A DNA stretch of 64,000 nucleotides from positions 4,940,501 to 5,004,500 of the forward strand of contig OX637795.1 of assembly GCA_951802425.1 (NCBI GenBank). Direction: 5' to 3'. The notes under the pieces were generated by a model that saw only the letters and a list, made by a program, of their open reading frames with translations, was not told the origin of the DNA and searched no databases. This DNA comes from Clavaria fumosa (lineage: Eukaryota > Basidiomycota > Agaricomycetes > Agaricales > Clavariaceae). How positions within the stretch are numbered: position 1 is the first letter of the stretch; each line of letters starts with the position of its first letter. This document shows, in pieces, positions 4,791 through 34,978 of the stretch. A program made the translations under genes and the position numbers.

Positions 4791-4794
4791 ACAC

Positions 4795-7943: not shown

Positions 7944-10900
7944 AGCTGTAAAACAAATGGCCAATGCAAGATTGGCCACATAATAAAAAACTGCAAAATG
8001 TGTTATAGGAACCTTGTAGACATGTTCTATAGGTAAAACAATACAACTTTTGTATGGATCATGTCTCACCCCACTTGCTACTTCAAAAGATCCCCTGGTT
8101 TTCATTTTGGCCTCTTCCTAGTGTATCATTACAAAGAATAGCATATTGTACAATACGTAGGCATGGGAGGCCTATGAAACTTTGAGGAGACATTCTCTAT
8201 AGTATATCAATGGTTTATGGCCACTTACCTGATCCCCTAAGCTTCTACTTTCAAAGATCCCCTGAAAATGCCCAAAAAACTCATTTTCCCGGGATCTTTG
8301 GACCTGGACACTAAAACACTTATGTAAAGCACCCACACCCTTTCCCTATACCCCCTCTAACCCCCCATACCATTCACTACCAAGTGGCCAATGCTCCACT
8401 TTCTGCTGACCCTTCTCTAACATCTGGCCACAGCTGGCCACTGTAGTTTCGGAACCTGGGATCTTTGGAAGCATAAGGTATACCACACTCAAAACACCTG
8501 GAACCTGGTGTCAAATAGGTGCCCTAACCCCAGGAATATTTTCAGGATTTTTGAACCGCTTATAGATTCTGGCCAATAGGCCACTTTGCCAAGACCCTAG
8601 CTGTAAAACAAATGGCCAATGCAAGATTGGCCACATAATAAAAAACTGCAAAATGTGTTATAGGAACCTTGTAGACATGTTCTATAGGTAAAACAATACA
8701 ACTTTTGTATGGATCATGTCTCACCCCACTTGCTACTTCAAAAGATCCCCTGGTTTTCATTTTGGCCTCTTCCTAGTGTATCATTACAAAGAATAGCATA
8801 TTGTACAATACGTAGGCATGGGAGGCCTATGAAACTTTGAGGAGACATTCTCTATAGTATATCAATGGTTTATGGCCACTTACCTGATCCCCTAAGCTTC
8901 TACTTTCAAAGATCCCCTGAAAATGCCCAAAAAACTCATTTTCCCGGGATCTTTGGACCTGGACACTAAAACACTTATGTAAAGCACCCACACCCTTTCC
9001 CTATACCCCCTCTAACCCCCCATACCATTCACTACCAAGTGGCCAATGCTCCACTTTCTGCTGACTCTTCTCTAACATCTGGCCACAGCTGGCCACTGTA
9101 GTTTCGGAACCTGGGATCTTTGGAAGCATAAGGTATACCACACTCAAAACACCTGGAACCTGGTGTCAAATAGGTGCCCTAACCCCAGGAATATTTTCAG
9201 GATTTTTGAACCGCTTATAGATTCTGGCCAATAGGCCACTTTGCCAAGACCCTAGCTGTAAAACAAATGGCCAATGCAAGATTGGCCACATAATAAAAAA
9301 CTGCAAAATGTGTTATAGGAACCTTGTAGACATGTTCTATAGGTAAAACAATACAACTTTTGTATGGATCATGTCTCACCCCACTTGCTACTTCAAAAGA
9401 TCCCCTGGTTTTCATTTTGGCCTCTTCCTAGTGTATCATTACAAAGAATAGCATATTGTACAATACGTAGGCATGGGAGGCCTATGAAACTTTGAGGAGA
9501 CATTCTCTATAGTATATCAATGGTTTATGGCCACTTACCTGATCCCCTAAGCTTCTACTTTCAAAGATCCCCTGAAAATGCCCAAAAAACTCATTTTCCC
9601 GGGATCTTTGGACCTGGACACTAAAACACTTATGTAAAGCACCCACACCCTTTCCCTATACCCCCTCTAACCCCCCATACCATTCACTACCAAGTGGCCA
9701 ATGCTCCACTTTCTGCTGACCCTTCTCTAACATCTGGCCACAGCTGGCCACTGTAGTTTCGGAACCTGGGATCTTTGGAAGCATAAGGTATACCACACTC
9801 AAAACACCTGGAACCTGGTGTCAAATAGGTGCCCTAACCCCAGGAATATTTTCAGGATTTTTGAACCGCTTATAGATTCTGGCCAATAGGCCACTTTGCC
9901 AAGACCCTAGCTGTAAAACAAATGGCCAATGCAAGATTGGCCACATAATAAAAAACTGCAAAATGTGTTATAGGAACCTTGTAGACATGTTCTATAGGTA
10001 AAACAATACAACTTTTGTATGGATCATGTCTCACCCCACTTGCTACTTCAAAAGATCCCCTGGTTTTCATTTTGGCCTCTTCCTAGTGTATCATTACAAA
10101 GAATAGCATATTGTACAATACGTAGGCATGGGAGGCCTATGAAACTTTGAGGAGACATTCTCTATAGTATATCAATGGTTTATGGCCACTTACCTGATCC
10201 CCTAAGCTTCTACTTTCAAAGATCCCCTGAAAATGCCCAAAAAACTCATTTTCCCGGGATCTTTGGACCTAGCTGTAAAACAAATGGCCAATGCAAGTTT
10301 GGCCACATAATAAAAAACTGCAAAATGTGTTATAGGAACCTTGTAGACATGTTCTATAGGTAAAACAATACAACTTTTGTATGGATCATGTCTCACCCCA
10401 CTTGCTACTTCAAAAGATCCCCTGGTTTTCATTTTGGCCTCTTCCTAGTGTATCATTACAAAGAATAGCATATTGTACAATACGTAGGCATGGGAGGCCT
10501 ATGAAACTTTGAGGAGACATTCTCTATAGTATATCAATGGTTTATGGCCACTTACCTGATCCCCTAAGCTTCTACTTTCAAAGATCCCCTGAAAATGCCC
10601 AAAAAACTCATTTTCCCGGGATCTTTGGACCTAGCTGTAAAACAAATGGCCAATGCAAGTTTGGCCACATAATAAAAAACTGCAAAATGTGTTATAGGAA
10701 CCTTGTAGACATGTTCTATAGGTAAAACAATACAACTTTTGTATGGATCATGTCTCACCCCACTTGCTACTTCAAAAGATCCCCTGGTTTTCATTTTGGC
10801 CTCTTCCTAGTGTATCATTACAAAGAATAGCATATTGTACAATACGTAGGCATGGGAGGCCTATGAAAATTTGAGGAGACATTCTCTATAGTATATCAAT

Positions 10901-11757
10901 GGTTTATGGCCACTTACCTGATCCCCTAAGCTTCTACTTTCAAAGATCCCCTGAAAATGCCCAAAAAACTCATTTTCCCGGGATCTTTGGACCTGGACAC
11001 TAAAACACTTATGTAAAGCACCCACACCCTTTCCCTATACCCCCTCTAACCCCCCATACCATTCACTACCAAGTGGCCAATGCTCCACTTTCTGCTGACC
11101 CTTCTCTAACATCTGGCCACAGCTGGCCACTGTAGTTTCGGAACCTGGGATCTTTGGAAGCATAAGGTATACCACACTCAAAACACCTGGAACCTGGTGT
11201 CAAATAGGTGCCCTAACCCCAGGAATATTTTCAGGATTTTTGAACCGCTTATAGATTCTGGCCAATAGGCCACTTTGCCAAGACCCTAGCTGTAAAACAA
11301 ATGGCCAATGCAAGATTGGCCACATAATAAAAAACTGCAAAATGTGTTATAGGAACCTTGTAGACATGTTCTATAGGTAAAACAATACAACTTTTGTATG
11401 GATCATGTCTCACCCCACTTGCTACTTCAAAAGATCCCCTGGTTTTCATTTTGGCCTCTTCCTAGTGTATCATTACAAAGAATAGCATATTGTACAATAC
11501 GTAGGCATGGGAGGCCTATGAAACTTTGAGGAGACATTCTCTATAGTATATCAATGGTTTATGGCCACTTACCTGATCCCCTAAGCTTCTACTTTCAAAG
11601 ATCCCCTGAAAATGCCCAAAAAACTCATTTTCCCGGGATCTTTGGACCTGGACACTAAAACACTTATGTAAAGCACCCACACCCTTTCCCTATACCCCCT
11701 CTAACCCCCCATACCATTCACTACCAAGTGGCCAATGCTCCACTTTCTGCTGACCCT
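7942..11757. repeat. Satellite A tandem array (655-bp and 362-bp units)
   Basis: Unit starts (CTAGCTGTAAAAC) lie at 7942, 8597, 9252, 9907, 10269, 10631 and 11286, giving 655, 655, 655, 362, 362, 655 and a partial 472 bp. The 362-bp units lack one internal 293-bp block (between GGACCT and CTAGCTG). Units are almost identical; a T for C at about 9067 and an A for C at about 10868 are visible variants. Each unit holds the hairpin TGGCCAAT-GCAAG-ATTGGCCA. The short open frames of 62-76 codons recur once per unit and are not regarded as genes. Confidence 0.95.
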
Positions 11758-12293
11758 TACCCACAACACTTGGCCAATGCAGCATTGGCCAACTTCTGTT
11801 AAATAATTTCCAATAATCACCAAAATATTCATATGCCTAGTTCCCATTTTTGGCATCATCTTTTGTATGGAAACCACATCCAACTTTCCATCTGTTCCAA
11901 AGATCCCCATTATTCTTGATAATAAATGAGCATGGCACATTAGCATGGCACATTGGCTATATCTCAGCAAACACTTCATATATTTTCATCAGACTTTGTG
12001 AGTAGATGCATACCTATGAGCAGTATCTTCAGTAATATTTCTATGAATTTACATGATTTAATGTAAAGGGTAGAGTGGGTGTGCAGATGAAGCAGAAGTG
12101 TGAGCCAGGGTGAGAGTGAAGATGATTGTGAGAGTGACAGAGTAAATGGGGTGGGTGAGGGTGAGTAAGAGTGTTCATGAAGGTGAAGGTGAGGGGTGAA
12201 GGTGACTGAGAGTGGGGTTCAGGCTTCTTTTCTCATGACTGTGATGGTCCCTTGTCCTTAACCTGCCGAGGATGCGCTTGAGGTCCCATCGGG
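11758..12293. other. Intergenic; 23-bp palindrome and G-rich tract, no gene
   Basis: No coding region is supported. A perfect palindrome with a one-base centre (arms TTGGCCAATGC) lies at 11770-11792 and resembles the hairpin in satellite A. 12070-12220 is G-rich on plus (GGGTGGGTGAGGGTGAG type) and could form G-quadruplex. The LTR of gypsy B, if present, was not identified here. Confidence 0.4.
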
Positions 12294-12323
12294 ATGAAAC
12301 AGTGCCACCTCAGGCCCCCTCGC

Positions 12324-12560
12324 CATCCATACACACCCGACCAACAACCTTTGGGTCCCCAGACCCCTTGCCATCCATACACACCCGACCAACAACCTTC
12401 GGGTCCCCAGACCCCTCACCATCCATACACACCCAACCAACAACCTTCGGGTCCCCAGACCCCTCGCCATCCATACACACCCAACCAACAACCTTCGGGT
12501 CCCCAGACCCCTCGCCATCCATACACACCCGACCAACAACCTTCGGGTCCCCAGACCCCG
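12324..12560 (+). repeat. 48-bp minisatellite inside gypsy B gag
   Basis: Five tandem 48-bp units, each encoding 16 residues of the type HPYTPDQQPSGPQTPR. The period is a multiple of three, so copy-number change keeps the gag frame. Differences between units are CG/CA or TG changes. Confidence 0.9.
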
Positions 12561-13153
12561 GCCTCTGTGTCCACTTCGTTAGGGATGATGCTCGGACCAG
12601 GTTTGGTTTCCTCGGGGAGCTCCAACCCCTTGGTCCCAGTAACCCTGTATCCTCCCGCTCCACCCACAATGCCTCCAAGCCCTACTCCACTACCTCGACC
12701 CTCAGTCCCTGCTCTTGTGTTGAGATATACACTTACACCAGTACTACCCCCACTATCCCTACTCACAACTAACTACTCTGGAGTGCTACCAGTGCTTCCT
12801 TTTCCGATACCCAGTGTCAACCCACCATCCTCAGCATGAGGGTCACGATGTCTGCTGCTGCCAACCCAGAGCCTCCCACCACAGTTGCCGCCACGACCTT
12901 TCGAGATTCCGGGGATTCCGCAAGGAATTCCACCAGCGGTACCTCCTGTGGTACCCATCGGAAATCTGCCCGCCGGTCTGCCATACTACATCTACTACCC
13001 AGCACCTCGAGACGACAGCCCCAAACTCAAGGAGCCCAACATCTTCACGGGTAAGGACCCAGCATGGCTAACAATGTTCATCTTGCAGTGCATTACATGG
13101 TTTCTGGGGAAGCCACAGAAGTTCGCTACTGATCGGGATCGTGTTCTATTCGC

Positions 13154-13158
13154 CACAT
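13154..13158. other. Target-site duplication of element S, left
   Basis: CACAT immediately left of the 5' LTR; the identical CACAT is at 20956-20960 right of the 3' LTR. A 5-bp duplication is standard for Ty3/gypsy integration. Confidence 0.92.
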
Positions 13159-13591
13159 TGTCACGCCCGTGCCAACCGGAGTATTCTCCGGCCTTCTCCA
13201 GCCTTCTCCGGCGGTCTCCGGACCCCCGATCGCAACTCCGGGCTCTCGGACCTAGGTCCAGAGCGCTGGACTTCACTTGCGCGACGTAGCGCAGGATCAG
13301 GAAGTGTGGCTGAAGGGCCACCAACTGATGTCCGCACTAGTTGCTGTTGCCTTGGGCAACCAGGAACTGGTCCTGCCCCGGACCCATCGCCCGGACAATT
13401 TGATGGACTCCCGGAAATGCCTGTACGTCATAGTTAGTAGTTTAACCTTTGTCCCGATCAGATTCCGTCTCCATCTCGTAGTCCCGTAGTTTAGTTTATT
13501 TCCTGACTCCCGGACATTACTCCGTAGCTACGAACTGATTCCGTAGTCGTACCGGAGTTATCTCCGTTGCTAGCATCGCCCCGGACTTTTG

Positions 13592-13597
13592 TATAAG
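13592..13597 (+). promoter_or_regulatory. Element S LTR TATA-like box
   Basis: TATAAG lies 34 nt before the 12-nt sequence that matches the primer-binding site. That spacing would put the RNA 5' end at or near the self-primer, as required by the Tf1 mechanism. Confidence 0.55.
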
Positions 13598-13625
13598 TAC
13601 TCGTAGATTACGGCCTTAGTCTAGC

Positions 13626-13637
13626 CAGTCTGATTAT
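13626..13637 (+). other. Element S candidate self-primer (RNA 5' end)
   Basis: CAGTCTGATTAT is the exact reverse complement of 13886-13897. In Tf1-type elements the first 11 or so transcript bases fold back onto the PBS, are cleaved and prime minus-strand DNA. The position downstream of a TATA box fits. The transcript start is inferred, not shown. Confidence 0.7.
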
Positions 13638-13885
13638 CAACCCCGCCTACTCGCACTCTACTCCGCATTGCCTGAAACCTGTCTCCCAACTTCTTCCGAA
13701 ATCCGAGACACTGATCCGCAGAGGGCGTCGTTTCAATACGTTTGCCAAGTCTCGTCCAAACTCCGGTTTGCTCCATCGCACCCGGACCTTGTTACTCTCG
13801 CCTGGACTTTATTGTTCCCCACCGGACTTTGTTATTTCCGCCCGGACTTTACTCCGCCCGACCCCTGCAACATAGACGTAACAGT

Positions 13886-13897
13886 ATAATCAGACTG
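13886..13897 (+). other. Element S primer-binding site (self-priming type)
   Basis: ATAATCAGACTG begins two bases after the 5' LTR end and is perfectly complementary over 12 nt to 13626-13637 in the LTR. No tRNA 3'-end complement (such as TGG-starting PBS) is present at this place. Confidence 0.75.
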
Positions 13898-13914
13898 ACC
13901 ACTCTGCAATCATA

Positions 13915-15057
13915 ATGTCCGAACCTCCCCGACGCAGTGGCCGCTTGCGCCCAAGTGCCAAGCCGATGACCCCTGGTGGGTCCAACCTCGGAGAACTAAT
14001 TAATCCGACCCCTCCTGGCGAGGGGGACGAACCAACCGTACCCGGTCCACGCGAAACCCGATCCCGATCTCCTCCGGCTGAACAGCCCGACTCCCCGTTA
14101 TCCGAACCCAACCCCGAAGCCCCGAACCTCGCAGACGCGATCCGCGCCTTGGCCGCATCCACCAAGGAACGAGGTTCCCCGTCTTCCCGCGTCAAGGAAC
14201 CGGAACCGTTCAACGGTTCCAACTCCAAGAAACTCCGTAGTTTCTTAGTTCAATGCGAATTGAACTTCCGAGACCGCCTGAAGACTTTCAGCGAGGACTC
14301 GGTAAAGATAAATTTTGCCATCTCCTTCCTGCAGGGAACCGCTCTCGAGTGGTTCGAACCCACTCTCCTAGGCGAAGCCCCGGACGCCAACTGGAATCTA
14401 TTCGTCCAGGAACTCCGGGATAACTTCGGACTGCACAATCCCGTTGGAGATGCGGAGGCCGAACTCGACCGCCTCCACATGAAGGACTCCCAACAGATCA
14501 CGACGTACAACGTCGAGTTTAACCGGATAGCTGCGCGGCTCCGGTGGGACGAAGCCGCACTCCGGCACAACTATTACTGCGGACTCCCAAACCGCCTCAA
14601 GGATGAGATTTCCCAAGTCGGGAAACCGACTTCCCTCCCCGTCCTGCGCAAACTCTGCCAGGACATTGACGCGCGATACTGGGAATATCAAGGCGAACGT
14701 TCCCGCGACGCACCCGCCAAATCCGACAACAAGCCCCGCCAAGCAAATAACTCCGGACAATCGTCCGGAGGAAACAAACCCGCCAACAACTCCGGAGCAG
14801 CATTGAACGCCTCCGGATCTGCACGAAAGACCGATCCCCCGAAGGATAATAAGATCAGCAAAGACGGAAAGCTAACTCCGGAGGAACGGAAACGCCGCTT
14901 CGACAACAACCTCTGCCTCGTTTGCGGAGGAACCGGACATGTTGTGAAGGACTGCCCGAAGTCCCGGAACACGCAGGGCAAGAAAGCCCGGACCGTCACG
15001 ACCTCCAACACAGTTCCGGAGGTTAAGGCTGCGGCTGCTCGGGCAAAAAACTCCTGA
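13915..15057 (+). CDS. gag: Element S Gag
   Basis: Intact 380-codon frame, ATG with A at -3, 17 nt after the PBS. N-terminal Pro/Ser/Arg-rich region, then a Ty3-type capsid (retrotrans_gag) domain at about residues 85-230 with the typical EWFEPTLL and YYCGLPNRLKDEI blocks, a Lys/Asn-rich linker and a zinc knuckle CLVCGGTGHVVKDC (C-x2-C-x4-H-x4-C, about residues 334-347) for RNA packaging. The frame ends TCC TGA directly after the heptamer A AAA AAC. Codon use is strongly GC3, unlike the neighbouring AT-richer elements. No internal stop. Confidence 0.93.
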   Translation: MSEPPRRSGRLRPSAKPMTPGGSNLGELINPTPPGEGDEPTVPGPRETRSRSPPAEQPDSPLSEPNPEAPNLADAIRALAASTKERGSPSSRVKEPEPFNGSNSKKLRSFLVQCELNFRDRLKTFSEDSVKINFAISFLQGTALEWFEPTLLGEAPDANWNLFVQELRDNFGLHNPVGDAEAELDRLHMKDSQQITTYNVEFNRIAARLRWDEAALRHNYYCGLPNRLKDEISQVGKPTSLPVLRKLCQDIDARYWEYQGERSRDAPAKSDNKPRQANNSGQSSGGNKPANNSGAALNASGSARKTDPPKDNKISKDGKLTPEERKRRFDNNLCLVCGGTGHVVKDCPKSRNTQGKKARTVTTSNTVPEVKAAAARAKNS

Positions 15058-15092
15058 GCGGCCCTTCGAAGTCCGCACTACCGGAGGACCGC
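15045..15092 (+). promoter_or_regulatory. Candidate -1 ribosomal frameshift signal at the gag end
   Basis: The canonical slippery heptamer A AAA AAC (15045-15051) is in the gag zero frame, one codon before the gag stop region. After a 6-nt spacer, GCGGCCC (15058-15064) can pair with GGACCGC (15086-15092, one mismatch), and an inner TCCG/CGGA stem lies in the loop. The -1 frame stays open with GC-rich third positions to about 15187 and then joins the protease frame only if one base was lost near 15185-15191. An alternative is a +1 slip at TCC TGA, since that frame is open from 15056 into protease. The stem is hand-folded. Confidence 0.5.
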
Positions 15093-18000
15093 GCCGCCCC
15101 AGCCAGTGCACATTACGAGTTCCGCCTCGGCGCATCTGCCGTTTCCCCTTCGTCCGACTCCTTGTACAAACTCTGTCTGCTCCGAATATAGATCGTTCTC
15201 CGTATTTCTGGACTCTGGTTGATTCCGGGTCATCGCATTGTTTCATAAGTCCTGAGTTTGTCAAGAAACACAAACTCCGGACAACTCCGATTTCCCCCAT
15301 GTCACTCCGCCTTTTCGATGGCTCCTCTACGGACATCGTCAAATCCACACTCACTCTCCCTGTCCAATTCCCTACCAGAGAACTTTTCGATATTGAATTC
15401 CTGGTAGCCCGAATGGATCCCGCCTGCTCCGCTGTCCTCGGATATAACTGGCTCACCCACTACAACCCGTTGGTTGACTGGGTAAGAGGCAGTATCGAAT
15501 TCCGGACACCGAAGTATTCCCGAACATCAAATCCGACCTCCGACACCCAAACCCCGACTCCGAAAGTGGGAACTACCGTCCTCACTCCCTCTCCGAAATC
15601 ACCACCACGGCACCCGGAGATTCGTTTTGTCAACGCAGCTGAATTTTCCAAGATCTCCGAGCCAACGGGATCTCGGACTTTCATGCTGCACCACTTTGGT
15701 GACGAAACATCCGTCCGCTCCGTCGCGACCGAACCGGTGGACCTGTCCTCCGTCCCGGAGGAATATCACGACTTCGCTGATGTGTTCAGCAAGACGAAAG
15801 CGGACACCCTAGCTCCGCATCGACCGTACGACCTCCGGATTAATCTGGAAGAAGGTAAAACTCCGCCCCATGGGCCGATATATTCCCTCTCCCAGATGGA
15901 GCTCCGTACACTGCGGGATTTCCTCGATGAACATCTCCGCATCGGATTTATCCGCCCGACTAGCTCTTCCCATGGATCTCCTGTTTTATTCGTCCGGAAA
16001 AAGGATGGAAGTCTCCGGCTATGCGTGGACTTCCGAGCCCTTAACCGGATCACCCGGAAAGACCAATATCCGATCCCCCTGACCCGCGATCTGCTGGACG
16101 TAGCCGGAAGTGCTAAGGTTTACACCAAAATCGATCTCCGGCACACCTACCATCTGGTCCGGATTGCGGAAGGCGATGAATGGAAAACCGCCTTCCGGAC
16201 CCGGTATGGTTCGTTCGAATGGTGCGTTATGCCCTTCGGACTTACTAACGCCCCTGCGGCATTTCAACACTTCATAAACGATGTGTTTTCCGACCTCCTG
16301 GACAAGTTTATGATTGTCTACCTGGACGACATCCTGGTATACTCCGACAACCTGGAGTCGCACGTACAGCATGTCCGAGAAGTATTCCGGCGCCTACGCG
16401 CCAACGGACTTTTCGCTCACGCAGGAAAATGCTTCTTCCATACTGAATGAGTTGAGTACCTAGGTTTCCTGCTCTCTCCGGAAGGACTCGCAATGGACCC
16501 GGCGAAGGTGAAAGCCATTACGGAATGGCCGGAGCCCCAGAAAGTGAAGGACGTCCAGTCCTTCCTCGGATTCGCCAACTTCTACCGGAGATTCGTCTTC
16601 CGGTACTCCGACATTGTCGTCCCTCTTACTTGACTCACGCGGAAGTCCTCTATCTGGAACTTCAATCCCGACTGCTGGGAAGCCTTCGACACCCTGAAGA
16701 CAGCTTTTACCTCGGCCCCGATACTGGCGAACTTCGTCCCCAACGTCCCTATAATTGTGGAAACAGACGCTTCGGACTACGCAGTCGCCGCGATACTCTC
16801 CTTGGAATTGCCACCCAGAGAAATTCATCCGGTTGCTTTTCACTCCCGGACACTCCACGACGCGGAGTTGAACTACGACACCCACAATAAGGAACTCCTG
16901 GCCATATTCAAGGCATTTGGTGAGTGGCGTCACTACCTCGAAGGTTCCGCTATTCCAGTCCACATCGTCACGGACCATAAAAACCTGGAATACTTTGGAA
17001 CTACCCGGACTTTGTCTCGGAGACAAGCCCGGTGGTCGGAATTCCTCTCCGGTTTCAACATGGTTATCCGATTCCGCCCCGGAAAACTTGGAACAAAACC
17101 CGACACCCTCACCCGACAATGGGACATTTACCCCAAAGAGGGAGATAGTGGCTACACCAGCATAAATCCGCAAAACCTCCGACCGATTTTCAACTCCGAA
17201 CAGCTGGCCACCTCCCTCCGAGCAACTTCCCTCGAAGGACTTGTACTCCGATCCGTCCTTGTCATGGACGAGGAAAAACTCCGAACCGACATCTGGAACT
17301 CGCTCCACAATGATCCGGTCGCAAGCACACGCCTGGACAAAGTTTTGTCTGGCACCGGAGATAATCCCTGGTGGACTGTAGACGCGTCCGGCTTCGTTCG
17401 ACTGGACGACCGGATATACGTTCCAGACTCCAATGACCTCCGACTCCGTGTCCTACTGTATAGGCACGACCACCCGATTTCCGGACACTTCGGACAAAAC
17501 AGGACCCTGGATTTGATCCGAAGGGAGTATACGTGGCCCGGACTTCGCAGTTTTGTCTCGGAGTATTGCAACTCCTGTACTAACTGCGGCAGATCGAAGA
17601 CCCGAAGGCACCGGCCTTACGGTCTCCTCCACCAACTCCCGGTCCCGGAATTACCATGGAATTCAATTTCCATGGACTTTATCGAACACCTCCCTCAATC
17701 CAATGGATTTAATTCCATCCTCGTCGTCGTTGACCGCTTTTCCAAGCAAGGAATCTTTACTCCGACCTACGACATGGTTACATCAATGGACCTCGCCAGA
17801 CTTTTCGTCCAGCATGTTTTCTCCAAGCACGGGGTTCCCTCGCACGTAACCTCTGATCGCGGACCGGAATTTGTTTCTCACTTTTTCCGCTCCCTCGGAA
17901 AAGCCCTCGACATGACTCTCCATTTCACATCCGGACATCACCCGGAAGCAGATGGTCAAACCGAACGGTTGAATCAGACACTGGAGCAGTATCTCCAGTC

Positions 18001-18751
18001 TTACTGCAATTATCAGCAAGATGATTGGTCCGAGCTCCTCCCACTTGCGGAATTTGTGTACAACAACGCCCCGAGCGAGACGACCGGAATTTCACCATTC
18101 TTCGCTAACAAAGGTTACCATCCGAACATCTCCGTCCGAGTTGACCAGGACATGACTTCCTCCCGTGCCCGGACTTATGTTGCTGACCTGGAAACACTCC
18201 ACCAGATACTCCGGCAACAAATCCTTGCCGCGCAGCAGCGGTACCAAAAGTCCGCTGACCGGCATTGTATTCCGGCCCCGGATTTCCGCGTCAGAAACAA
18301 AGTTTTCGTTAAGGCGGAATTCTTCCGCACCACCCGACCGTCCAAAAAGCTCAGCGAGAAAATGCTCGGACCTTACGAGATCATCGCTCAAGCCGGACAA
18401 AGCTCCTTTACTCTCCGACTCCCGGAAACCCTCTGCTCCGTACATCCGGTATTCCACATTTCAATGCTGGAATTGGCAACAGCCAACACAATTCCGAACC
18501 GGATCCAGCCCCCTCCAGAACCCGTAGTTGTCGACGGAGAACTGGAATTCGAGATCACGGAGATTTTGGATTCTAAGTACGACAACCAGAGGAAGACTTG
18601 TAAGCTACTCTACTTGGTCCGGTGGATGGGTTACGAAGGAACCGACGAAGAAACTTCCTGGCTGCTCACTACGGAGCTTGAGCACACACCGGACCTCGTC
18701 GCGGACTTCCATTCCGCGTACCCCAACAAACCCGGACCCCTCGGAGTTTAG
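15058..18751 (+). pseudogene. pol: Element S Pol: PR-RT-RNase H-IN-chromodomain, two stops
   Basis: One frame holds everything: protease (WTLVDSGSSHCFI, catalytic DSG at about 15221), RT with intact YLDDILVYS (16319), RNase H (VETDASDYA, then DHKNLEYF), integrase with an H-H/C-C zinc domain (HDHPISGHFG, CNSCTNC) and DDE residues in MDFIEHLP, SDRGPEF and DGQTERLN, and a C-terminal chromodomain (about 18535-18720, ITEILDSK, LVRWMGYEG). It is about 1230 codons long, normal for chromoviruses. TGA at 16448-16450 and TGA at 16631-16633 (PLT-stop-LTRK, where Arg CGA is expected) interrupt RT. All catalytic residues seen are intact. Confidence 0.93.
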
Positions 18752-18830
18752 ACTTCACTCGGACTTAGTTCACACGAAGTCCGATCAACGGAAATCCGAT
18801 TCGCAAAAACAAAAATATATACGAAATAAT

Positions 18831-20009
18831 TTACACCGGACCTAAGTCCGGTTCCCCCTCCACATCCTCCGTCTCCATCTCCTGCTCCACTCCTTCCCCC
18901 ACCTCCGGCCGGACATCCATCAACGATGAACGACAGGAGCGCGCGATCTCCTGCTCCACCGCCTGGGCCATCTCCGGATCTCGTCGCTCCAGTACCCTCC
19001 GCAGGATCCGGTTATCCTGCGCAAGCTGATCCCTCTCCGCGATCATCTTGTTCATGTTGAGGTGCTCGATGAAGTCCGGGACGAGCTACCGGAGTTCAGT
19101 TCCGAACTCCGCAGGTGCCCCAGAAATGACTCACCTGCCCGATTGCTGCCTCCAGCCTCCTCGTCATCTTCTCCAGCCCCTTCACCATCGAGTTCCGGTG
19201 CATCCAGACTTCATGGCTCTTCTCCACGTTGGCCCGGAGGAACCAGTTCGTCGACTGGAGATCCAGCTCCGGCTCGAAATCCTCGGCCCGGAGCTTCTTC
19301 GCTGGCCTCGCCTCCACCTCCGGCTCGCCCTCCGCCTCCGTCTCCGACCTCCGGTCCAAGTCCGACTCCACCATGGTGTCGGACTTCGTCCCCCAACGCG
19401 TGACCCGCTTTCCCTTGTCTTTTCCTTTTCCCTTGCCCTTCGCCTTCCCCGGCCACATGCACCCAACCCGCTTCTCCCGGCATTTGTCACAACTCCGAGT
19501 TCTCGCCGGCCCCGTCCATTTGCATTCCTGGCCCAGACTTTAGCGCGAACTCCGGCGGAGACAGGAGAACCTACCAGTTTTTTCTGGGAGCAACGCTCGC
19601 ATGTTACTCCGGCCGAGGTCCCCTGGGCCTCCGCGATCTCTGCTGCGCGCTTCCTCCGCGCCTCCTCCTCCTTCTGCTCCTGCACCGCTTTCTCCGCCGC
19701 CTCCTGGAGGTTTACTGACTCCTCCACACTGGCCACCAGCTTCGTCGTGGCCTGCGCCACCTCCAACTCCTTCCTCCGTTCCCGCGCTCTTTTCCCCGCC
19801 TCTTCCTCCTTCCTTCTTGTCTCCGCCTCCTCCTCCTTCCGTTTCCGCTCCGCTTCCTCCTCCCTCCGTTTCATCTCCGCTTCCTCCTCCTCTCGTCTCC
19901 TCCGCTCCGCCGCCTCCTTCTCCCTCCGCACCTTGTTCACCTGCAACACCTCCATCTCCGCCTGGAGTTTCCGGAGTTGGACTTCGTACTTGGTGTCTTC
20001 TTCAGCCAT
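18831..20009 (-). CDS. Antisense spliced gene in element S: coiled-coil Zn2Cys6 protein
   Basis: Three exons, 20009-19575, 19527-19135 and 19085-18831, join in phase 0 into 360 codons with no internal stop. Residues about 5-125 are an extremely Glu/Arg/Lys-rich coiled coil. The first splice fuses CERC to the following Cys block, making Cys137, 140, 147, 158, 161 and 168: C-x2-C-x6-C-x10-C-x2-C-x6-C, the fungal Zn(II)2Cys6 DNA-binding cluster. A Gly/Lys-rich basic run (about 172-187, NLS-like) follows, then a second coiled coil (about 290-325) and an acidic tail. The ATG has G at -3 and +4. It lies antisense between pol and the 3' LTR. A nuclear regulatory role is inferred from the motif; expression is unproven. 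Confidence 0.78.
19086..19134 (-). other. Intron 2 of the antisense Zn2Cys6 gene
   Basis: 49 nt on the minus strand: donor GTGAGT (consensus), branch-like ACTGAAC, acceptor TAG, phase 0. Read-through would stop inside the intron; splicing adds 84 residues including a coiled coil. Confidence 0.75.
19528..19574 (-). other. Intron 1 of the antisense Zn2Cys6 gene
   Basis: 47 nt on the minus strand: donor GTAGGT, branch-like GCTAAAG 17 nt from the end, acceptor CAG. The unspliced frame loses the third to sixth cysteines; splicing restores the cluster. Confidence 0.75.
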
Positions 20010-20066
20010 GCCTGGTGGTGGTTCAGGTCTAAGGAGAGGGGACCGGTGGTGGATTGATGCCCCGGA

Positions 20067-20073
20067 TTATATA
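20067..20073 (-). promoter_or_regulatory. TATA box for the antisense gene
   Basis: TATATAA on the minus strand, 58 nt upstream of the ATG at 20009. This leaves room for a 5' UTR of roughly 25-30 nt. The site lies outside the 3' LTR, so the gene appears to have its own promoter. Confidence 0.55.
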
Positions 20074-20205
20074 CCCGGCCACGAATTTCGAACTCCGACG
20101 AATCTCCGATCCCATTTCCGTCCTCGGATCACGATCGCCTTGATCCGAACGCCCCAATCCGGCCCAGGGGTGGTAACGGATCTAGGGCCTCGAGGGCTCA
20201 GCCCT

Positions 20206-20217
20206 GAGAGGGAGATA
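20206..20217 (+). other. Element S polypurine tract
   Basis: GAGAGGGAGATA ends one base before the 3' LTR at 20219, the expected position for the plus-strand primer. Confidence 0.75.
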
Positions 20218-20218
20218 C

Positions 20219-20955
20219 TGTCATGCCCGTGCCAACCGGAGTATTCTCCGGCCTTCTCTGGCGGTCTCCGGACCCCCAATCGCAACTCCGGGCTCTCGGA
20301 CCTAGGTCCAGAGCGCCGGACTTCACTTGCGCGACATAGTGCAGGATCAGGAAGTGTGCCTGAAGGGCCACCAACTGATGTCCGCACTAGTTGCTGTTGC
20401 CTCGGGCAACCAGGAACTGGTCCTGCCCCAGACCCGTCACCCGGACAATTTGATGGACTCCCGGAAACGCCTGTACATCATAGTTAGTAGTTTAACCTTT
20501 GTCCCGATCAGATTCTGTCTCTGTCTCGTAGTCCCATAGTTTAGTTTATTTCCTGACTCCCGGACATTACTCCGTAGCTACGAACTGATTCCGTAGTCGT
20601 ACCGGAGTTATCTCCGTTGCTAGCATCGCCCCGGACTTTTGTATAAGTACTCGTAGATTACGGCCTTAGTCTAGCCAGTCTGATTATCAACCCCGCCTAC
20701 TCGCACTCTACTCCGCATTGCCTGAAACCCGTCTCCCGACTTCTTCTGAAATCCGAGACACTGATCCGCAGAGGGCGTCGTTTCAATACGTTCGCCAAGT
20801 CTCGTCCGAACCCAAGTCCAACTCCGTCCAAACTCCGGTTTGCTCCGTCGCACCCGGACCTTGTTACTCTCGCCCGGACTTTATTGTTCCCCACCGGACT
20901 TTGTTATTTCTGCCCGGACTTTACTCCGCCCGACCCCCACGACATAGACGTAACA
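20219..20955 (+). repeat. Element S 3' LTR
   Basis: 737 bp, TGTCATGCCC to GACGTAACA, followed by CACAT. It has a short extra segment near 20810 and lacks a small duplication near 13200 relative to the 5' LTR. The self-primer sequence is conserved. Confidence 0.93.
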
Positions 20956-20960
20956 CACAT
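20956..20960. other. Target-site duplication of element S, right
   Basis: CACAT, identical to 13154-13158. Confidence 0.92.
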
Positions 20961-25582: not shown

Positions 25583-27780
25583 CCCTCCCCCACTGGAGAG
25601 GCCCCTAACCAGAGATGATGCACAGGCAGTGCAGGATGACAAGCAGGATTGTAAAATAATATTAAAGGGGTGCATCCCCTTGGGCAGAGTTGTCGCCATG
25701 TCACCAGGCACAATCCCCTCCTGGGGCCTTTGCCTGGTGCTGACAGGTCCAGCCAAGTGGTCTGCGTGACCTGCCCCCAGTTGGACAGTGTGTCACGAGT
25801 GGCACACCCTGGTGGGGGGTGTATTGTTAAACCTCCAATAGGCAGCCCTAGGGGGTTTCGGACAGTGGATGTACTTCCACTGTCTTCCAGGGGCATGTTG
25901 CCCCTCCATTTGTCCCCTGTCCTCTCCCCCACCCAGAGGCAGCACAGATGTGCACTGTGCCCTATGCACTCTAGCAGTGCATACATTCAGGGGGTATGGG
26001 AGGCTTCTCCCATTCAGCCAGCACTAGCTGGATGTCATCATCTAAGGGGGCATTCCCCTTTCACATGTACTTGTGTGGGTACATGAGTACAAATTTGTCC
26101 CAGAGCTTCTTCAACAGAGACTCTGGCATCAGCAAATGCCTTGATTGTCTGTGCAACTGTCAGTGTTACTTTTGTGGTCCAGAGTCTGGACCATCACACA
26201 GGGAGGACTCTCCCTTTGATGGCCTGCGCATATGCCCCCTTTGAGACAAAGAGGGCCATGGCCATGGCCAGGAACAGGCACCGCATCCGGGCCTGGGATG
26301 GCACACATGCCATTATGGTGTGCCAGATGGCCACCTTGCATGCAAAAGACAGGGGTGAGTCCCCATCTTTATCAATGCCAAGGATGGCCACTCTGCCCAT
26401 CCTTATTTCCTCAACATAGCAGTGCAGGTCTGACACTGTGCCTCTGTCACCTTTTGGATTCATAGGGGGAATTTCCCCCTTCTCTCCTACAAAGGAGAGC
26501 CACAACTCTTGGGGGAGCAACAGCTCCCCAATGTCTATAAACTCCCTCATGGGAGGCACAACTACTCTCATCATTGCCAGCAGCAATGTCTGGTACAATG
26601 GATAGGAGGGTACTCCCCCTCCTGTGACTTCCGAGGGTCCTGTCCTCAGGGATGGGTTGCCCATCCCTCCACTCTCTTGCAACATCTGCCCTTGCAGATG
26701 GCAGGCTACCTGGTCTGCTGATTTCTTGACCCTGGCAGGAACTCTCCAGTTCCTCACCAGCCAGTCCTCAACTGGCATGGGTGGCTTAGCCACTGTGGCG
26801 TTCTTCTGGGCCTCCTTGACAGCCCATCACATCTTCATCATGGCAGTCATATCATAACTGCCGTCAGGCACTCCATGATGCACCTATTGGTTGAGGGCAA
26901 TCACCTCCTCAACTGTCTTCAACTTGACAACCCATGCACCAGGTTTCATGGACACCCCAGATGGCCAAGGGTAGCCATCTGGAGCTCTGTCTGGTTGAGG
27001 GGCATTAAAGGGATAACCCCTTGTCAGAGGTGTGAGAACCATCTCTGAGAAAGTTCATTTATGCCTCAGTGAGGCATCAGGATTCTGCTGACTGACACCA
27101 GCAGGTGGAAGAGGGGGATATCCCTCTTCAAAACTCATGGGGATGTCAATGTCCCCTGTAGGCAGTGCTATGTCCGCATATGAGACAGTGGTGCAGGCCC
27201 ATTTTGGGTCCCACTCCAAGGGGTCCCTTTCAGGTCCCTTTCCCTTTGCTGTGGTTCTCAGTGTGGCAAGCTCCTCATTGGTGCTTGCCAACTTTTCTGT
27301 CAAGGAGAGAATCTTCTCCTGTGCCCCTCTAAGGTCTTCTTCAACCTTGTCCAAATTATCATAAGCTTTTTCAAGCTTTTGCTGATGACCCACACAAAGG
27401 CACTGCCCTTCTCATTATCCTTGCACAAGTCTTCCAGCTTGCACTGCATCACCTCAAGCCCCAGCCCAAGTTTGTGCTTAGCACTTTCCTGCACTTCCTT
27501 AAGTGTTTGCTGAAACACTTCATCCAAGTGCAACAGCAACTCGAAGATGTGACAATGGAACCTGATGCACTGAGGGCACCAGGATCTGTGAGTGATCGCA
27601 TGAATCATGTGGTCTTGGACCCAGGGGAGGGCCTCCTCCCCTTGTGACAATAACGGCTGGGACAACCCAGCCATTCTGATGATGCTTGTCAGCAACGAGT
27701 TTCCTGGTGCAAGGCCAGGAACAGTGGCAGCAGGGATAGCATGAGGAGATGGGGTCTCCCCATCAGATCATCCATGGTTA
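25583..27780 (-). pseudogene. Gypsy A copy A2: 3' accessory ORF, most complete copy
   Basis: Runs from about 27780 to the PPT at 25583, about 700 codons. Order: Trp/Cys-rich start, CPQC pair, coiled coil (27600-27270), acidic TGDIDIPMSFEEG segment, then a conserved block (26793-26194) with PMPVEDWLVRNWRVPARV, PPMREFIDIGELLLP and CYVEEIRMGRVAILGIDKD. One base is deleted near 27398 relative to A1; TGA at 27052-27054 (CGA in A3), TAG at about 26886 (CAG in A3) and TGA at about 26194 interrupt it. Unknown family and function; it lies between the Pol chromodomain and the 3' LTR on the sense strand. Confidence 0.65.
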
Positions 27781-27925
27781 TGGTTGATGGAGAAATAAGA
27801 AAAAGAGGGTGGATCCTCTTAAGGTTTCGTACCTGAGCCACCATGTGACTCAACTGTGGCTAATGACCCTGCGGTCTGGCTCAATCTGTTTACTACTCTG
27901 CATGGGTGCTCTGTCTGCACTCTGC

Positions 27926-28640
27926 TCAAGGGTGCCTAGGCAGTGCCCTCCACGATTCCACCCCTTGCAATTCAAGGTAGTGGTCTAGAGCTGCTAGCTC
28001 TTTGACTCCCATATATGGCTCCCAAGTTGTATCCCCAAGATTCCATTGGACCTCACATTCTAGGTGGTGTCCTTCCCACCTATGGCCAATAATGGCATTG
28101 ACCAGCCATTCCTCCTTTGGATCCATTCCAAAGTCATAAAAGACTTTCACTTCATGGTGCAGAAACAACATGTTGTTGTTTGGCTCATGTTGCTGTAGCC
28201 AGCTGACATGGAACATCGGGTGGATTCTCCTTGACTTTAGTGAGTCAGGGAGCTCCAGCTCATATGTGGATGATTCCGGTCTACATGACCATATTGGGTA
28301 AGGCCCAATAAACTAATTCTCCCTCTCTAAATGGGTGCTCTTCCTGTCAATGCTGATTAGCATAAAACATCTGGTGGATGCAACTTTCTATGATCACATC
28401 ATGTGCCATTGAAAGGTTGAGTGCAGCCTTCTCTGCGAACATCCTTACTCCTCTGGGCTGTGCCCAGAGGTTGTCTGGCAACTCTGCCATCATCTGGGGC
28501 ATATACCCATAGGTTAATTCAAATAGGGTGAACCCCATAGACATGCTTATCAGTGTGTTAATGGCGAACTTGACCATTGGGATTCGCTCCGCCCAATCTG
28601 TCTGGTCTGGCTGGACCACAGATCAGATTGACTGCTCCAT
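27926..28640 (-). pseudogene. Gypsy A copy A2: integrase C-terminal part and chromodomain
   Basis: Frames 28619-28347 and 28216-27926 read as the post-core integrase region (TDGVMEQSI then VVQPDQTDWAERIPMVKFAI) and the chromodomain (PKEEWLVNAIIGHRWEG, DTTWEPYMGVKEL). The 62-bp deletion near 28314 is shared with A1 and absent from A3. A frame break joins the two parts. Confidence 0.82.
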
Positions 28641-29081
28641 CACTCCATCTGTCTGCAGATGGAAAGCTGTGGACATCCACAGCTTAACACTGAGTAATTG
28701 GTGAGTTTCCTGCCAAAAGGCAGATGTGAATCTAGGATCATTGTTGGACACAATCAATCCTGGCAACCCATGTAGTCTCACTACATGTGTTAGAAAGAGC
28801 CAGGCTAGCTCTGCTGCCATTACCTGTACTGCTGCATCTACCAGGCATAATATTGGTGTTTTACATGCCAATGCCTTGATCATCTCCATGCATCTATCAT
28901 GGAGCGGCCTCCAGTGAAACATTTGCATTTCACTATACAGACTGGCTAATGGGCCAGTATATGCAGACAGATTGGGCAGGAACTGTCCAATGTACTGTAC
29001 TAACCCAAGGAACCTCTGTACCTTGTTAACGCTTGTTGGTGTTTTCCATTTTATCCACTGTAATGTGGATTCGCCAGGCAT
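28641..29081 (-). pseudogene. Gypsy A copy A2: RT connection fused to integrase core by deletion
   Basis: A continuous frame passes from the RT thumb/connection (KVQRFLGLVQYIGQFLPNLS, ILCLVDAAVQ) straight into the integrase core (VMAAELAWLFLTHVVRLHGL, then SNNDPRFTSAFWQETHQLL). In A3 these are separated by about 1.1 kb encoding RNase H and the integrase zinc domain, so A2 lost that block. The integrase Asp in SDRD is Asn here. Confidence 0.82.
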
Positions 29082-29838
29082 CTATTATGTGCCCTAAGCA
29101 ATCTATGCTCTGTGCATATAACGAGCACTTTTTTTTGCTCAAGAAAAGGCTGGTGCCTTTGAGGGTCTCAAAGACCATCCCTAAGTGATGCTCATGGTCC
29201 TCCAAGGTCTTGGAGAGGGTGAATACATTGTCTAAGTACACATGCACATACTTCCCCAGCTGATGACAAAATATGTGCATCATCAGGCACTGAAAGGTAG
29301 CAGGGGCATTACATTCCCCTATCTGCATCACCTGTGAGAACATGGTGCCCAAGATGGTCACAAATGCCATCTTCCACACCTCCTCAGGCTCTACGCATAC
29401 TTGTTCATTCGCATCTGATAGGTCAATCTTTGACCTATATGCGGCTCTAGCCACGTCCTCTCTGATCTGATCTTGATCAGGCAATGGGGTAATATCCTGT
29501 ACAGTGTTTGCATTCTGTTTCTGGCAGTCTACAACTGTCTGTAGCAGCGGGTTCCAGCTGCTTTTCAGTATACACAGCATAGGAGCTGCCTGTGATGCTG
29601 CTCCTGCTTCCCACCAACCGTTAGTAATGTAATGGTTCACTTTCTCAAGGAATTGTTCCTTGAATGCCTCAGCACACCAAGGCAAGTAATAGTTATAGAC
29701 TTTCTTTTTGTCCATCAAGGGTATATGGTGGTTTACTGCCCAAAATGGAGGCAGTCTGGGGGGGACTCCCCCAAAGAGTTCAGCATACTGGTTAAACCAG
29801 TACTCATGCCTGCCCTTGAGGTAGGCATCATCTTTCAA
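29026..29838 (-). pseudogene. Gypsy A copy A2: reverse transcriptase
   Basis: A 270-codon RT frame: fingers (GGVPPRLPPFWAVNHHIPL), block A/B (TVVDCQKQNANT, PDQDQIREDVA, SKIDLSDANEQV), block C (QIGECNAPATFQCLMMHIF) and the polymerase box read as YLDNVFTLS. The second Asp of YLDD, which binds the catalytic metal, is Asn. The frame overlaps the next by a frameshift near 29081. Protease is missing upstream. Confidence 0.88.
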
Positions 29839-30061
29839 TTTTACAGAGGCATTAGCCTCTCCCCCTTCCAGGGCTCACCCTTGTCACAGGGGCCCAAGTG
29901 TAGTCAGCTCTTTGGAGCTTCCTTCCTTGGCACACTCTTTCCCAATACATGGAGGCATAACACTTCTGTTTCCTCACTCGGGTGACATAGCCTGAAGGGT
30001 TTTTCCTTTTCCTTTGCAGATATGGATTGCCCACAACCAGCATAGTCATCTTCCATGACTT
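29839..30061 (-). pseudogene. Gypsy A copy A2: broken 5' end
   Basis: Short remnants upstream of RT (EANASVKLKDDAY) followed by unrelated blocks (basic residues, Cys-containing) and an 11-residue match to the gag-pol linker (KSWKMTMLVVG). At about 30062 it joins the P2 G-rich tract. Confidence 0.4.
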
Positions 30062-30518: not shown

Positions 30519-33203
30519 TAGCATCTATTCAAGCCCTCATCCATCTGAGGTGCTCCCTGTTGCCCCTGTAGCACCATCAGATAGTCACCCATGTACCAGC
30601 ATACCATTGCCCTTGATGATTGTCTGCTCTCCTGTCTCTTCCCCATTCTCTTCATTCAGCAATTGTGTCTCCCCCATGTGTTGATAGCTGTGGGCCACAC
30701 ACTTTGATACACATGCTTTCAAGCTTTGACACAAACTCAACACATCACTTAACTGACTTTGTGAGATGGGGCATCCAGGACACCCACTTTGACATTCACA
30801 TCTAGTCAACTTTGTGTGTCATTTGGGCATGGCAGTCCTGGACACCCACCTTGAGGCACACATCCAGTCAACTTACTTTGTACATTATGAGAGATGTGGG
30901 TGTCCTGGTCCTCCTGGCATGGCTTACCTGTATCTGTATGATATCCCAGCCTGCATCACATTGGATCTTGGTAGGTATGTAGGACCTAGGTTTGGCATGT
31001 TAAGAGTGAGTAGCACAGGTGGTGTAAGTAGGATGGAGGGTGGACAGTGTGAGTGGAGTGAGTGGGTGGCACAGGCAAGGTGAGTAAGGCAAGTGGCACA
31101 AGTGAGGAGGTGCAAGTGAGGCAAGCCATGTGGTGTAGCACCAATGAGGTGAGTGGGTAGGCAGTGCAAGCAGGGTGGATGGCACAATTGGGGGTGAGCA
31201 GCATGGGTGGCACCATTGGGACAAGTTTGGTGGACAGTGCATATTATCAGTCAATGATAAGTTAATATTTCCTTGAATTATTCATGACATGTCTGCTTGA
31301 GTAATGTATGTGTTTACTGTGCTCATGCTTGTCATACCTGGCACTGCTCATGTTCATCAGTCATTGATTATGTGTGCCATACAGTGCCTAGGCTATGTCC
31401 ATGCTGCTCATAGCAACCCACCTCCAGACCCTGTTCTTTTTTCCCTTCCCCAAGTAGTCCAGCACAATGCAGTTCTGCCTCCACCCCTTCCTTGCCATGT
31501 GCTATCCACTCTATGCTGCTTGTCTTGTTCTTCTGTCTAGGAGTCTGGTGATTAACATAGACAGAAGAACAAGACAAGCAGCATAGAGTGGATAGCACAT
31601 GGCAAGGAAGGGGTGGAGGCAGAACTGCATTGTGCTGGACTACTTGGGGAAGGGAAAAAAGAACAGGGTCTGGAGGTGGGTTGCTATGAGCAGCATGGAC
31701 ATAGCCTAGGCACTGTATGGCACACATAAGCAATGACTGATGAACATGAGCAGTGCCAGGTATGACAAGCATGAGCACAGTAAACACATACATTACTCAA
31801 GCAGACATGTCATGAATAATACAAGGAAATATTAACTTATCATTGACTGATAATATGCACTGTCCACCAAACTTGTTCCAATGGTGCCACCCATGCTGCT
31901 CACCCCCAATTGTGCCATCCACCCTGCTTGCACTGCCTACCCACTCACCTCATTGGTGCTACACCACATGGCTTGCCTCACTTGCACCTCCTCACTTGTG
32001 CCACTTGCCTTACTCACCTTGCCTGTGCCACCCACTCACTCCACTCACACTGTCCACCCTCCATCCTACTTACACCACCTGTGCTACTCACTCTTAACAT
32101 GCCAAACCTAGGTCCTACATACCTACCAAGATCCAATGTGATGCAGGCTGGGATATCATACAGATACAGGTACAGTCATCCACTGGTCCTTGCACCAGTG
32201 AATTTTTCAGGCAAGTGTCACGAAATGTGTATTATAGTTTAATAAAATCGGGTAATACCTATCAAATTAGTACCCTCTAAGCCACATGACTGCCCATTTT
32301 AGTCTAAATCAGATTGAAATTGGCTAATATCGGGGCCAATCTCTGAAAAAACTCGTTATCAGTAGTAATATTAGTCCTTGAACCAGACGTCACGTCACGC
32401 ATGCCGCATCATGCTGCCTGCGCCAGCAAGTGACAGTGAGTCAGTGTGACATGACATGATAACAGCCACTTTGCAAGAGATGGTCTCTCCCTCTCTGTAG
32501 AAGTGTTTCCTTAGTCCAAATTGCAGTAGACCATGTAGAGTACTATCACAGTTCAATGTATGATTTTTTTCAAAACTTATTATGAGGCCGAGAATGCAAA
32601 TTTACAAAAATTATGCAATAAATTCAATCTCATTTGAGATCCAAGCATGCAACTGGCAAATCCGATTTTACCTGTATGTACAAGACTATGTAGGCCAAGC
32701 TAGTACCATTTTTGAGGTCATAGGTTTGTTGTATGAGTGTTTAAAAAATTTTGTTTCAAGGACCGGTGCTGGTTCAAGGACCAGTGGATGACTGTAAGCC
32801 ATGCCAGGAGGACCAGGACACCCACATCTCTCATAATGTACAAAGTAAGTTGACTGGATGTGTGCCTCAAGGTGGGTGTCCAGGACTGCCATGCCCAAAT
32901 GACACACAAAGTTGACTAGATGTGAATGTCAAAGTGGGTGTCCTGGATGCCCCATCTCACAAAGTCAGTTAAGTGATGAGTTGAGTTTGTGTCAAAGCTT
33001 GAAAGCATGTGTGTGGCCCACAGCTATCAACACATGGGGGAGAATGGGGGAGACACAATTGCTGAATGAAGAGACTGGGGAAGAGACAGGAGAGCAGACA
33101 ATCATACAAGGGCAATGGTATGCTGGTACATGGGTGACTATCTGATGGTGCTATAGGGACAACAGGGAGCACCTCAGATGGAGGAGGGCTGGAATGGATG
33201 CTA
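30519..33203. repeat. Large palindrome P2 (about 1.02-kb arms) with MITE in right arm
   Basis: Left arm 30519-31539 and right arm 31558-33203 are inverted copies around an 18-nt spacer (31540-31557). The right arm is longer only because of a 622-bp transposon plus its TA duplication (32173-32796). The frames 30924-31187 (minus) and 31910-32171 (plus) are the same peptide. The centre carries about 170 bp per arm that P1 lacks. Confidence 0.92.
32173..32794. mobile_element. TA-flanked DNA transposon (MITE-like, 622 bp)
   Basis: Perfect 20-bp terminal inverted repeats CAGTCATCCACTGGTCCTTG, flanked by TA (32171-32172 and 32795-32796). The other arm of P2 holds the empty site (TA at 30925-30926). 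The interior has no transposase frame; the motif GTCCTTGAACCAG recurs at 32372 and at the right end. TA duplication and CAGT ends suggest a non-autonomous Tc1/mariner-superfamily element. Confidence 0.9.
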
Positions 33204-33375
33204 ACTATTCCCTAGGACGAATAGGCTAGCCTATTCAGGTTGGATGTTGGATACCTTCAAATCTCACCCCCCCCTTGGAATTGAGGGTGGTGGCAGTGAG
33301 GGGAGGTGACCCAGAGTAGATTAGGGTTAGGTTAAGGGGGTTCGTGGTTTCCCCTAACTCAAATGGCAGGGTTAG
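33204..33375. other. Unique linker between P2 and the 21-bp minisatellite
   Basis: No gene. It includes a C8 run, and TTAGGGTTAGG at about 33323 (two telomere-like units only). Confidence 0.5.
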
Positions 33376-33669
33376 GGCCTGGTTGGATTGACTGGGCCTG
33401 GTTGGATCACCTTGGGGCATGGTTGGATTAACCCAGGGCATGGTTGGATCACCCTGTGGTTAGGTTGGATTGACCCAGGGCCTGGTTGGATCACCCTGAG
33501 GCATGGTTGGATCTACTTGGGGCATGGTTGGATTAACCCAGGGCCTGGTTGGATCTACTTGGGGCCTGGTTGGTTCACCCTGAGGCATGGTTGGATCTAC
33601 TCAGAGCATGGTTGGATTGACCCAGGGCATGGTTGGATTGACCCAGGGCCTGGTTGGATCTACTTGGGG
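33376..33669 (+). repeat. 21-bp minisatellite, left block
   Basis: About 14 units of 21 bp with core TGGTTGGAT (for example GGGCATGGTTGGATTAACCCA). Read in the open frame it gives seven-residue repeats with a GxGWI core. It ends at the TSD TGGGG of the LTR-C insertion. Confidence 0.92.
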
Positions 33670-34977: not shown

Positions 34978-34978
34978 A

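Follow-up and report, generated by a model that had tools for sequence, protein, structure and literature searches.

A Ty3-type LTR retrotransposon of this fungal genome carries, on the strand opposite to gag and pol, a spliced gene predicted to encode a Zn2Cys6-type protein, and comparison of its copies indicates that it is almost certainly a protein-coding gene maintained by selection. Judging from sequence, at least three element families of this genome have such an antisense gene in common; they are referred to here as S (the family of the element analysed), T, and U.

Architecture of the element and its antisense gene

The window, i.e., the whole 64-kb stretch of DNA that was analysed (C2:4940501-5004500), belongs to a genome of 48.8 Mb in 17 contigs, which was also the genome searched. 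Positions 13159-20955 of the window are occupied by an LTR element (Table 1), whose LTR pair is 92.2% identical over a 747-column alignment. The Pfam cut-offs are passed by Ty3_capsid, RVT_1, Integrase_H2C2, rve, and Chromo, and gag, RT, integrase, and chromodomain follow one another in this order on one strand; by its domain content, the element is a Ty3-type, chromodomain-bearing LTR element. The pol frame of this particular copy is interrupted by two in-frame internal stops.

On the opposite strand, the antisense gene lies in the interval that separates pol from the 3' LTR; its stop codon (18831-18833) is 79 nt from that of pol, and the two units are convergent. Joined in phase 0, its three exons form a continuous frame of 360 aa from ATG to TAA, and the spliced protein contains the pattern C-x2-C-x6-C-x10-C-x2-C-x6-C, whereas the unspliced frame is interrupted by stops and does not contain the six-Cys motif. 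The gene model of the original prediction was thus confirmed at its coordinates, including the three minus-strand exons, the GT-AG introns of 47 and 49 nt, the restoration of the exact Gal4-type spacing by splicing, and the upstream TATA box, while the positions of the LTRs, Pfam domains, and exons place the gene, as had been proposed, in the slot between pol and the 3' LTR, facing pol.

Table 1. Coordinates of the LTR element and its antisense gene in the window
Feature	Position	Strand	Description
Target site duplication CACAT, left copy	13154..13158	.	5 bp
5' LTR	13159..13883	+	Starts TGTCACGCCCGTGCC; direct repeat with 3' LTR
gag	13915..15057	+	Pfam Ty3_capsid, Retrotrans_gag; zinc knuckle just under cut-off
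pol	15299..18751	+	RT 15299-16450; integrase with SH3 and chromodomain 17060-18751 (Pfam)
Exon 3	18831..19085	-	Second helical, leucine-rich stretch, acidic tail, TAA
Intron 2	19086..19134	-	49 nt, GTGAGT...TAG
Exon 2	19135..19527	-	Cys 3 to Cys 6, basic GKGKGKDKGKR stretch, linker
Intron 1	19528..19574	-	47 nt, GTAGGT...CAG, between Cys 2 and Cys 3
Exon 1	19575..20009	-	ATG, charged predicted coiled-coil stretch, Cys 1 and Cys 2
TATATAA box	20067..20073	-	About 57 nt upstream of ATG
Purine-rich stretch GAGAGGGAGATAC, PPT-like	20206..20218	+	Read by eye; precedes 3' LTR
3' LTR	20219..20955	+	28 TCCG/CGGA sites; four CGGA spaced exactly 20 bp apart
Target site duplication CACAT, right copy	20956..20960	.	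5 bp

The Gal4-type spacing is C-x2-C-x6-C-x5-12-C-x2-C-x6-8-C, with which the S, T, and U proteins all agree. Their scores for PF00172 (Zn_clus) are 10.6, 19.6, and 15 bits, respectively, all below the Pfam cut-off of 21; since the spacing agrees and the score falls short, the statement that these proteins work like Zn2Cys6 regulators is stronger than the statement that they are members of PF00172. As read from the sequence, the S protein consists of a long charged helical N-terminal part, the Cys cluster, the basic stretch, and a second helical part, and we infer that it is nuclear and that its Cys residues form a Gal4-type Zn2Cys6 cluster, whose helical flanks could allow dimerisation. No solved relative was found by sequence (best E 0.19). 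Across the six frames of the window, a stop-free C-x10-C-x2-C-x6-C occurs only once, in the S gene, and a looser six-Cys pattern also matches an unrelated frame at 30269/30260 (-).

Several other features were observed in the window. Two perfect inverted repeats are located at 6236-7945 (838-nt arms with 34 nt between) and 30925-32172 (615-nt arms with 18 nt between), the perfection of the arms suggesting either a recent origin or an assembly effect. An array of seven 300-nt copies, 99-100% identical and spaced 655 and 362 nt, lies at 7941-11584, and a 48-nt tandem repeat at 12268-12607 falls within a 181-codon open frame without a Pfam match. Long direct duplications of 95-100% identity pair 1-1160 with 27122-28279 and 3753-5663 with 37939-40000, and remnants of other RT/integrase elements are found at 50994-52193 (-), 60891-61925 (-), and 29026-29715 (-).

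Conservation and selection among S copies

A DNA search of the same genome returned at least 44 match rows (40 of 79 candidates scored), the best 30 of which (L009-L038) were aligned. The GT and AG of both introns are kept in all 30 copies, with intron 1 measuring 47 nt throughout and intron 2 measuring 49 nt in 29 copies (48 in L012). By reading, the TATATAA box is kept in 27 of the 30; it is deleted in L016 and L020, and the region is absent in L036. An uninterrupted ATG-to-stop spliced protein is encoded by 14 of the 30 copies, and the exon indels of intact copies are mostly triplet-length. Because the gene is conserved across copies, its origin by chance is excluded.

Counting methods applied to 29 copies (the partial copy L036 was left out) gave a dN/dS of 0.273 for the spliced antisense frame, as against 1.184 and 1.059 for the shifted antisense frames and 1.266 and 1.256 for two sense frames. 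The mirror sense frame, which shares the same third positions, reached 0.386, with 55 stops compared to 7 in the antisense frame. A dN/dS below 1, as anticipated by the original prediction, therefore holds in S, and a loss of the ORF or a neutral decay of its frame in relatives is not borne out. The integrase part yielded 0.141 (27 of the 30 copies, three with short matches having been left out), and the synonymous divergence of integrase and gene is similar (0.177 and 0.187). A sense ORF at 19054-20487 (+, 477 aa) was also considered as the true gene and rejected, with 23 stops in 29 copies and a dN/dS of 0.66 in its 19054-20009 part.

CpG sites in the LTR and gene of L009-L038 change several-fold more than other sites, which may be taken as a sign of methylation-linked decay; in view of this heavy change, sites were split into CpG and non-CpG classes for the selection test. 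At non-CpG sites of the S gene, there are 0.609 synonymous versus 0.124 non-synonymous changes per site (introns 0.509), a difference reached by 0 of 20,000 permutations, and the possibility that the low dN/dS is a mere by-product of CpG decay is ruled out by this test. At CpG sites, synonymous and non-synonymous changes barely differ (2.22 versus 1.96; 1257 of 20,000 permutations). This history can be read as selection during element replication and near-neutral decay afterwards. The integrase of S elements follows the same pattern (0.412 synonymous versus 0.045 non-synonymous), and its distances correlate with those of the S gene (r 0.967 for 26 copies; 0 of 2000 permutations), indicating that the gene and its element have been transmitted together for a long time.

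Among the 14 intact S proteins, all six Cys residues are present in eight. The remaining six comprise L023-L026, with Arg at Cys1, L028, with Trp at Cys1, and L017, without Cys3; Arg also replaces Cys1 in L030, which has a disrupted frame. The copies that have lost a Cys include a set of five that are nearly identical to one another. Integrase is stop-free, in the part examined, in L023, L024, L025, and L030, and the first three of these are hence near-copies that multiplied despite a damaged cluster. Such copies would fit either a protein supplied in trans by other copies or a repressor that it is advantageous to lose.

Related antisense genes in other element families

A protein search with S exon 2 returned 59 rows, of which about 20 were distant (32-50% identity), and four of these were fetched (L069-L072). 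The T gene (L070, L072) has an intron of 72-73 nt with the codon junction and phase found in S, as well as the same Cys spacing, and S and T match by BLASTP with an E of 1.6e-25 (the S sequence being one residue short). Between L070 and L072, dN/dS is 0.366, with 0.92-1.22 in other frames and 0.511 in the mirror frame. L069 contains an integrase (residues 365-560, 57.7% identical to that of S) with the gene behind it on the opposite strand, and L070 and L071 retain only pol scraps (29-45% identity) between LTR-like repeats. The T copies L071 (5665-6966) and L073 share a common deletion that removes the donor site of the intron along with adjacent codons; these are two rows read out of eight at 93-100% identity, the other six being at 93-97%. 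The C-terminal portion of the T gene at L072:5438-6931 (-) has the appearance of a long repeat of the dipeptide VR.

Searching with the S integrase returned at least 79 rows (77 of 2354 candidates scored), 28 at 75% identity or more and 51 below. An antisense S gene lies behind 26 of the 28 closer integrases; one of the two others is a fragment of the other, more distant class, and one lacks a gene in the slot. Within 4 kb downstream of the more distant integrases, an antisense U gene is present in 38 of 51 rows, in most cases at 350-750 nt; in two of the 51, the match to U shares the strand of the integrase, and U was not found in 11. Inspection of two of these 11 revealed a frame-broken relative in the slot (L076) and an interruption by another element (L077).

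The U gene, which belongs to a large sister family, is intronless, has about 330 codons, and encodes the same C-x2-C-x6-C-x10-C-x2-C-x6-C pattern (L074, L075, and L078, the last from a 52%-identity copy). On the original question of whether frame, introns, and six Cys are conserved in related elements, the outcome is favourable: the ORF persists, the introns are present in S and T (U has none), and the six Cys are conserved with exceptions. The dN/dS between L074 and L075 is 0.203 (other frames 1.09-1.54; mirror 0.246), and the U protein has at least 131 match rows (122 of 254 candidates scored), at least 41 of which are, by our own count, nearly full-length without a stop. Twelve U-like rows, at 48-49% identity and mostly similar in both score and length, lie no farther than ~0.3 Mb from a contig end or else on C14, a small contig (e.g., C7:52132, C10:3286015, C13:1869647, and C14:40879), and possibly represent a subtelomeric family.

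S and U show no significant match by BLASTP (E 8.7-9.8). Profile comparison gave a probability of 80.5% at full length and of 64.3% for the cluster region alone (S and T against U); as the S-U profile match lies partly on low-complexity helices, homology of the two genes is likely rather than proven. S residues 125-300 have no relatives among public proteins at E<=1e-3 (279 candidates), and no relatives were confirmed in viral contigs or in bacterial and archaeal genomes.

CGG-type motifs in the elements

Zn2Cys6 proteins generally recognise CGG triplets. The word ACTCCG occurs 8 times in the S LTR and 11 times in the U LTR, against 0.6 expected in each. Relative to the dinucleotide expectation in 2-kb bins, TCCG/CGGA reaches 2.2-2.9 in S and 2.4-2.8 in T and U stretches, although a trinucleotide expectation absorbs much of the excess in some bins (14001-16000: 73 seen, 64.3 expected). 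The ratio is 0.72-1.34 at eight host Zn2Cys6 loci, 0.94-1.51 (50001-54000) and 0.86 (28001-30000) in Ty3-type remnants of the window, and 1.78 in another Ty3-like element in L069. TCCG/CGGA and CCGGA/CTCCG are top-ranked words in S and in the internal part of T, as is CTCCG in U, but none of them in controls. Compared with synonymous-codon shuffles, pol contains 68 versus 41.2 and 60 versus 35.4 motifs (0 of 500 shuffles); in gag, CGGA is in excess (3 of 500), but TCCG is not (81 of 500). In addition, ACTCCG-N4-ACTCCG occurs 389 times in the genome versus 13 for the reversed control, and the listed positions show CGG-type sites recurring every 10 or 20 bp in some portions of the LTRs.

Motif sites in the LTRs are not clearly better kept than the rest at non-CpG sites (0.282 versus 0.211), and another motif definition gave 0.193 versus 0.301. 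High TCCG/CGGA ratios also occur in window bins where the gene was not seen, namely 2001-4000 (3.53), 32001-34000 (2.97), 34001-36000 (2.46), and 60001-62000 (2.73, 7 sites). Given these gene-less bins and the unclear motif conservation, binding of the protein to its own element is plausible rather than a result, and the chances that it does so appear evenly balanced. Arrays of a 21-nt tandem repeat were observed at 33329-33753 and 34452-35044, with an inverse copy near 2819-3661; bins 2001-4000 and 32001-34000 coincide with such arrays.

Proposed mechanism and alternative explanations

In the proposed mechanism, the antisense accessory gene would use its own promoter region, and its nuclear Zn2Cys6 product would occupy CGG-type sites (TCCG/CGGA, often ACTCCG/CGGAGT) throughout its own element, where binding would activate the element or oppose its silencing. 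The introns would persist because LTR-driven genomic RNA holds them reversed and therefore unspliceable during retrotransposition; since they could not be removed from this RNA, a spliced gene would persist only this way round, and the antisense placement may thus account for the survival of introns in a retroelement. The U gene has the same antisense orientation, yet lacks introns. Taken as a whole, the explanation by an accessory gene for an own-element Zn2Cys6 regulator, either activator or anti-silencer, is somewhat probable. Activation or anti-silencing is favoured because the copies show the very high CpG change expected of methylated DNA, and even so the claim that the protein is an activator or anti-silencer rather than a repressor is tentative, held with more doubt than confidence. 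The most specific version, in which a fungal Ty3 lineage would sustain its expression against methylation by an antisense-encoded Gal4-type factor that has its own promoter and recognises CGG motifs distributed over the whole element and phased in its LTRs, is doubtful.

A self-limiting repressor, which would bind its own LTR and reduce transcription of the element to hold copy number at a tolerable level, is unlikely, although the TATA-bearing promoter region adjoins the 3' LTR, motif sites lie within the LTR, and the multiplied copies with damaged clusters (L023-L026) fit an escape from repression; long purifying selection across families would be harder to sustain if gene loss favoured the losing copy. 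The protein might instead act as a chromatin tether: along with the chromodomain of the integrase, it would direct integration or entry into the nucleus, with existing CGG-rich copies marked as targets. Motif-rich copies are indeed abundant, the integrase bears a chromodomain, and gene and integrase are co-inherited as judged by the correlation of their distances; however, a gene driven in antisense by a promoter of its own is not synchronised with gag-pol, and a tethering role seems quite improbable.

The two remaining explanations are both very improbable. Antisense RNA alone might matter, through dsRNA with genomic RNA, small RNAs, or interference, the reading frame being incidental, and the transcript would oppose the genomic RNA of the element over about 1.2 kb; the codon-position pattern, the dN/dS of 0.27, the kept splice sites, and the mostly triplet-length exon indels nevertheless call for a protein. 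Similarly, a host Zn2Cys6 gene might have been captured by one element as a neutral passenger, for which the 16 Zn_clus match rows in the host genome could supply a source, but purifying selection, the filling of the same antisense slot in three families, and the absence of a near host relative among the inspected matches to S, T, and U queries argue against it. The original prediction had left open whether the gene is the element's own or a captured host gene: that it belongs to the element and is selected stands, while a one-off or recent capture is contradicted by its presence in at least three families.

Significance and comparison with known systems

No title found in a limited literature search describes such an antisense gene in fungi, and none of five terms looked for occurs in PMC6317226. 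A spliced, selected Zn2Cys6 gene in fungi would show the antisense slot of Ty3 elements serving a DNA-binding protein in another kingdom. Should the protein recognise the CGGA motifs in the element that encodes it, this would represent a retrotransposon with a dedicated transcription factor and offer a handle on silencing escape, and such elements would be a possible source of new host regulators. The intronless U form, together with the motif, makes simple binding tests possible.

Extra genes in antisense orientation reportedly occur in plant Ty3 elements of the Tat lineage, where gene23 of Grande is said to encode a nuclear product. The arrangement is alike in that a Ty3 element has an additional gene located, in reverse orientation, between pol and the 3' LTR, and an own promoter and a nuclear product are likewise reported for Tat. 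The Tat-lineage elements are, however, plant elements without Zn2Cys6, whereas the present case involves a fungal chromodomain element, two introns, a Gal4-type cluster, and element-wide CGGA motifs. VANC proteins of Arabidopsis VANDAL DNA transposons are said to counteract silencing via motifs repeated in their own element, and offer a parallel as accessory proteins that are encoded by a transposon and reported to act on short motifs recurring across it; VANC is nevertheless an unrelated protein of a plant DNA transposon, and motif binding and an effect on silencing are proposed here by inference only.

With fungal Gal4-type Zn2Cys6 regulators (PF00172), the S protein shares the six-Cys spacing, a basic stretch followed by a helical region, and the expectation of CGG-type sites. 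Unlike typical members of that family, it is encoded by an LTR element, scores below the Pfam cut-off, and has its cluster mid-protein after a long charged helix. The element itself resembles other fungal Ty3-type chromodomain elements in its gag, RT, integrase with SH3 and chromodomain, and 5-bp target duplication, and differs from them in the spliced antisense gene between pol and the 3' LTR.
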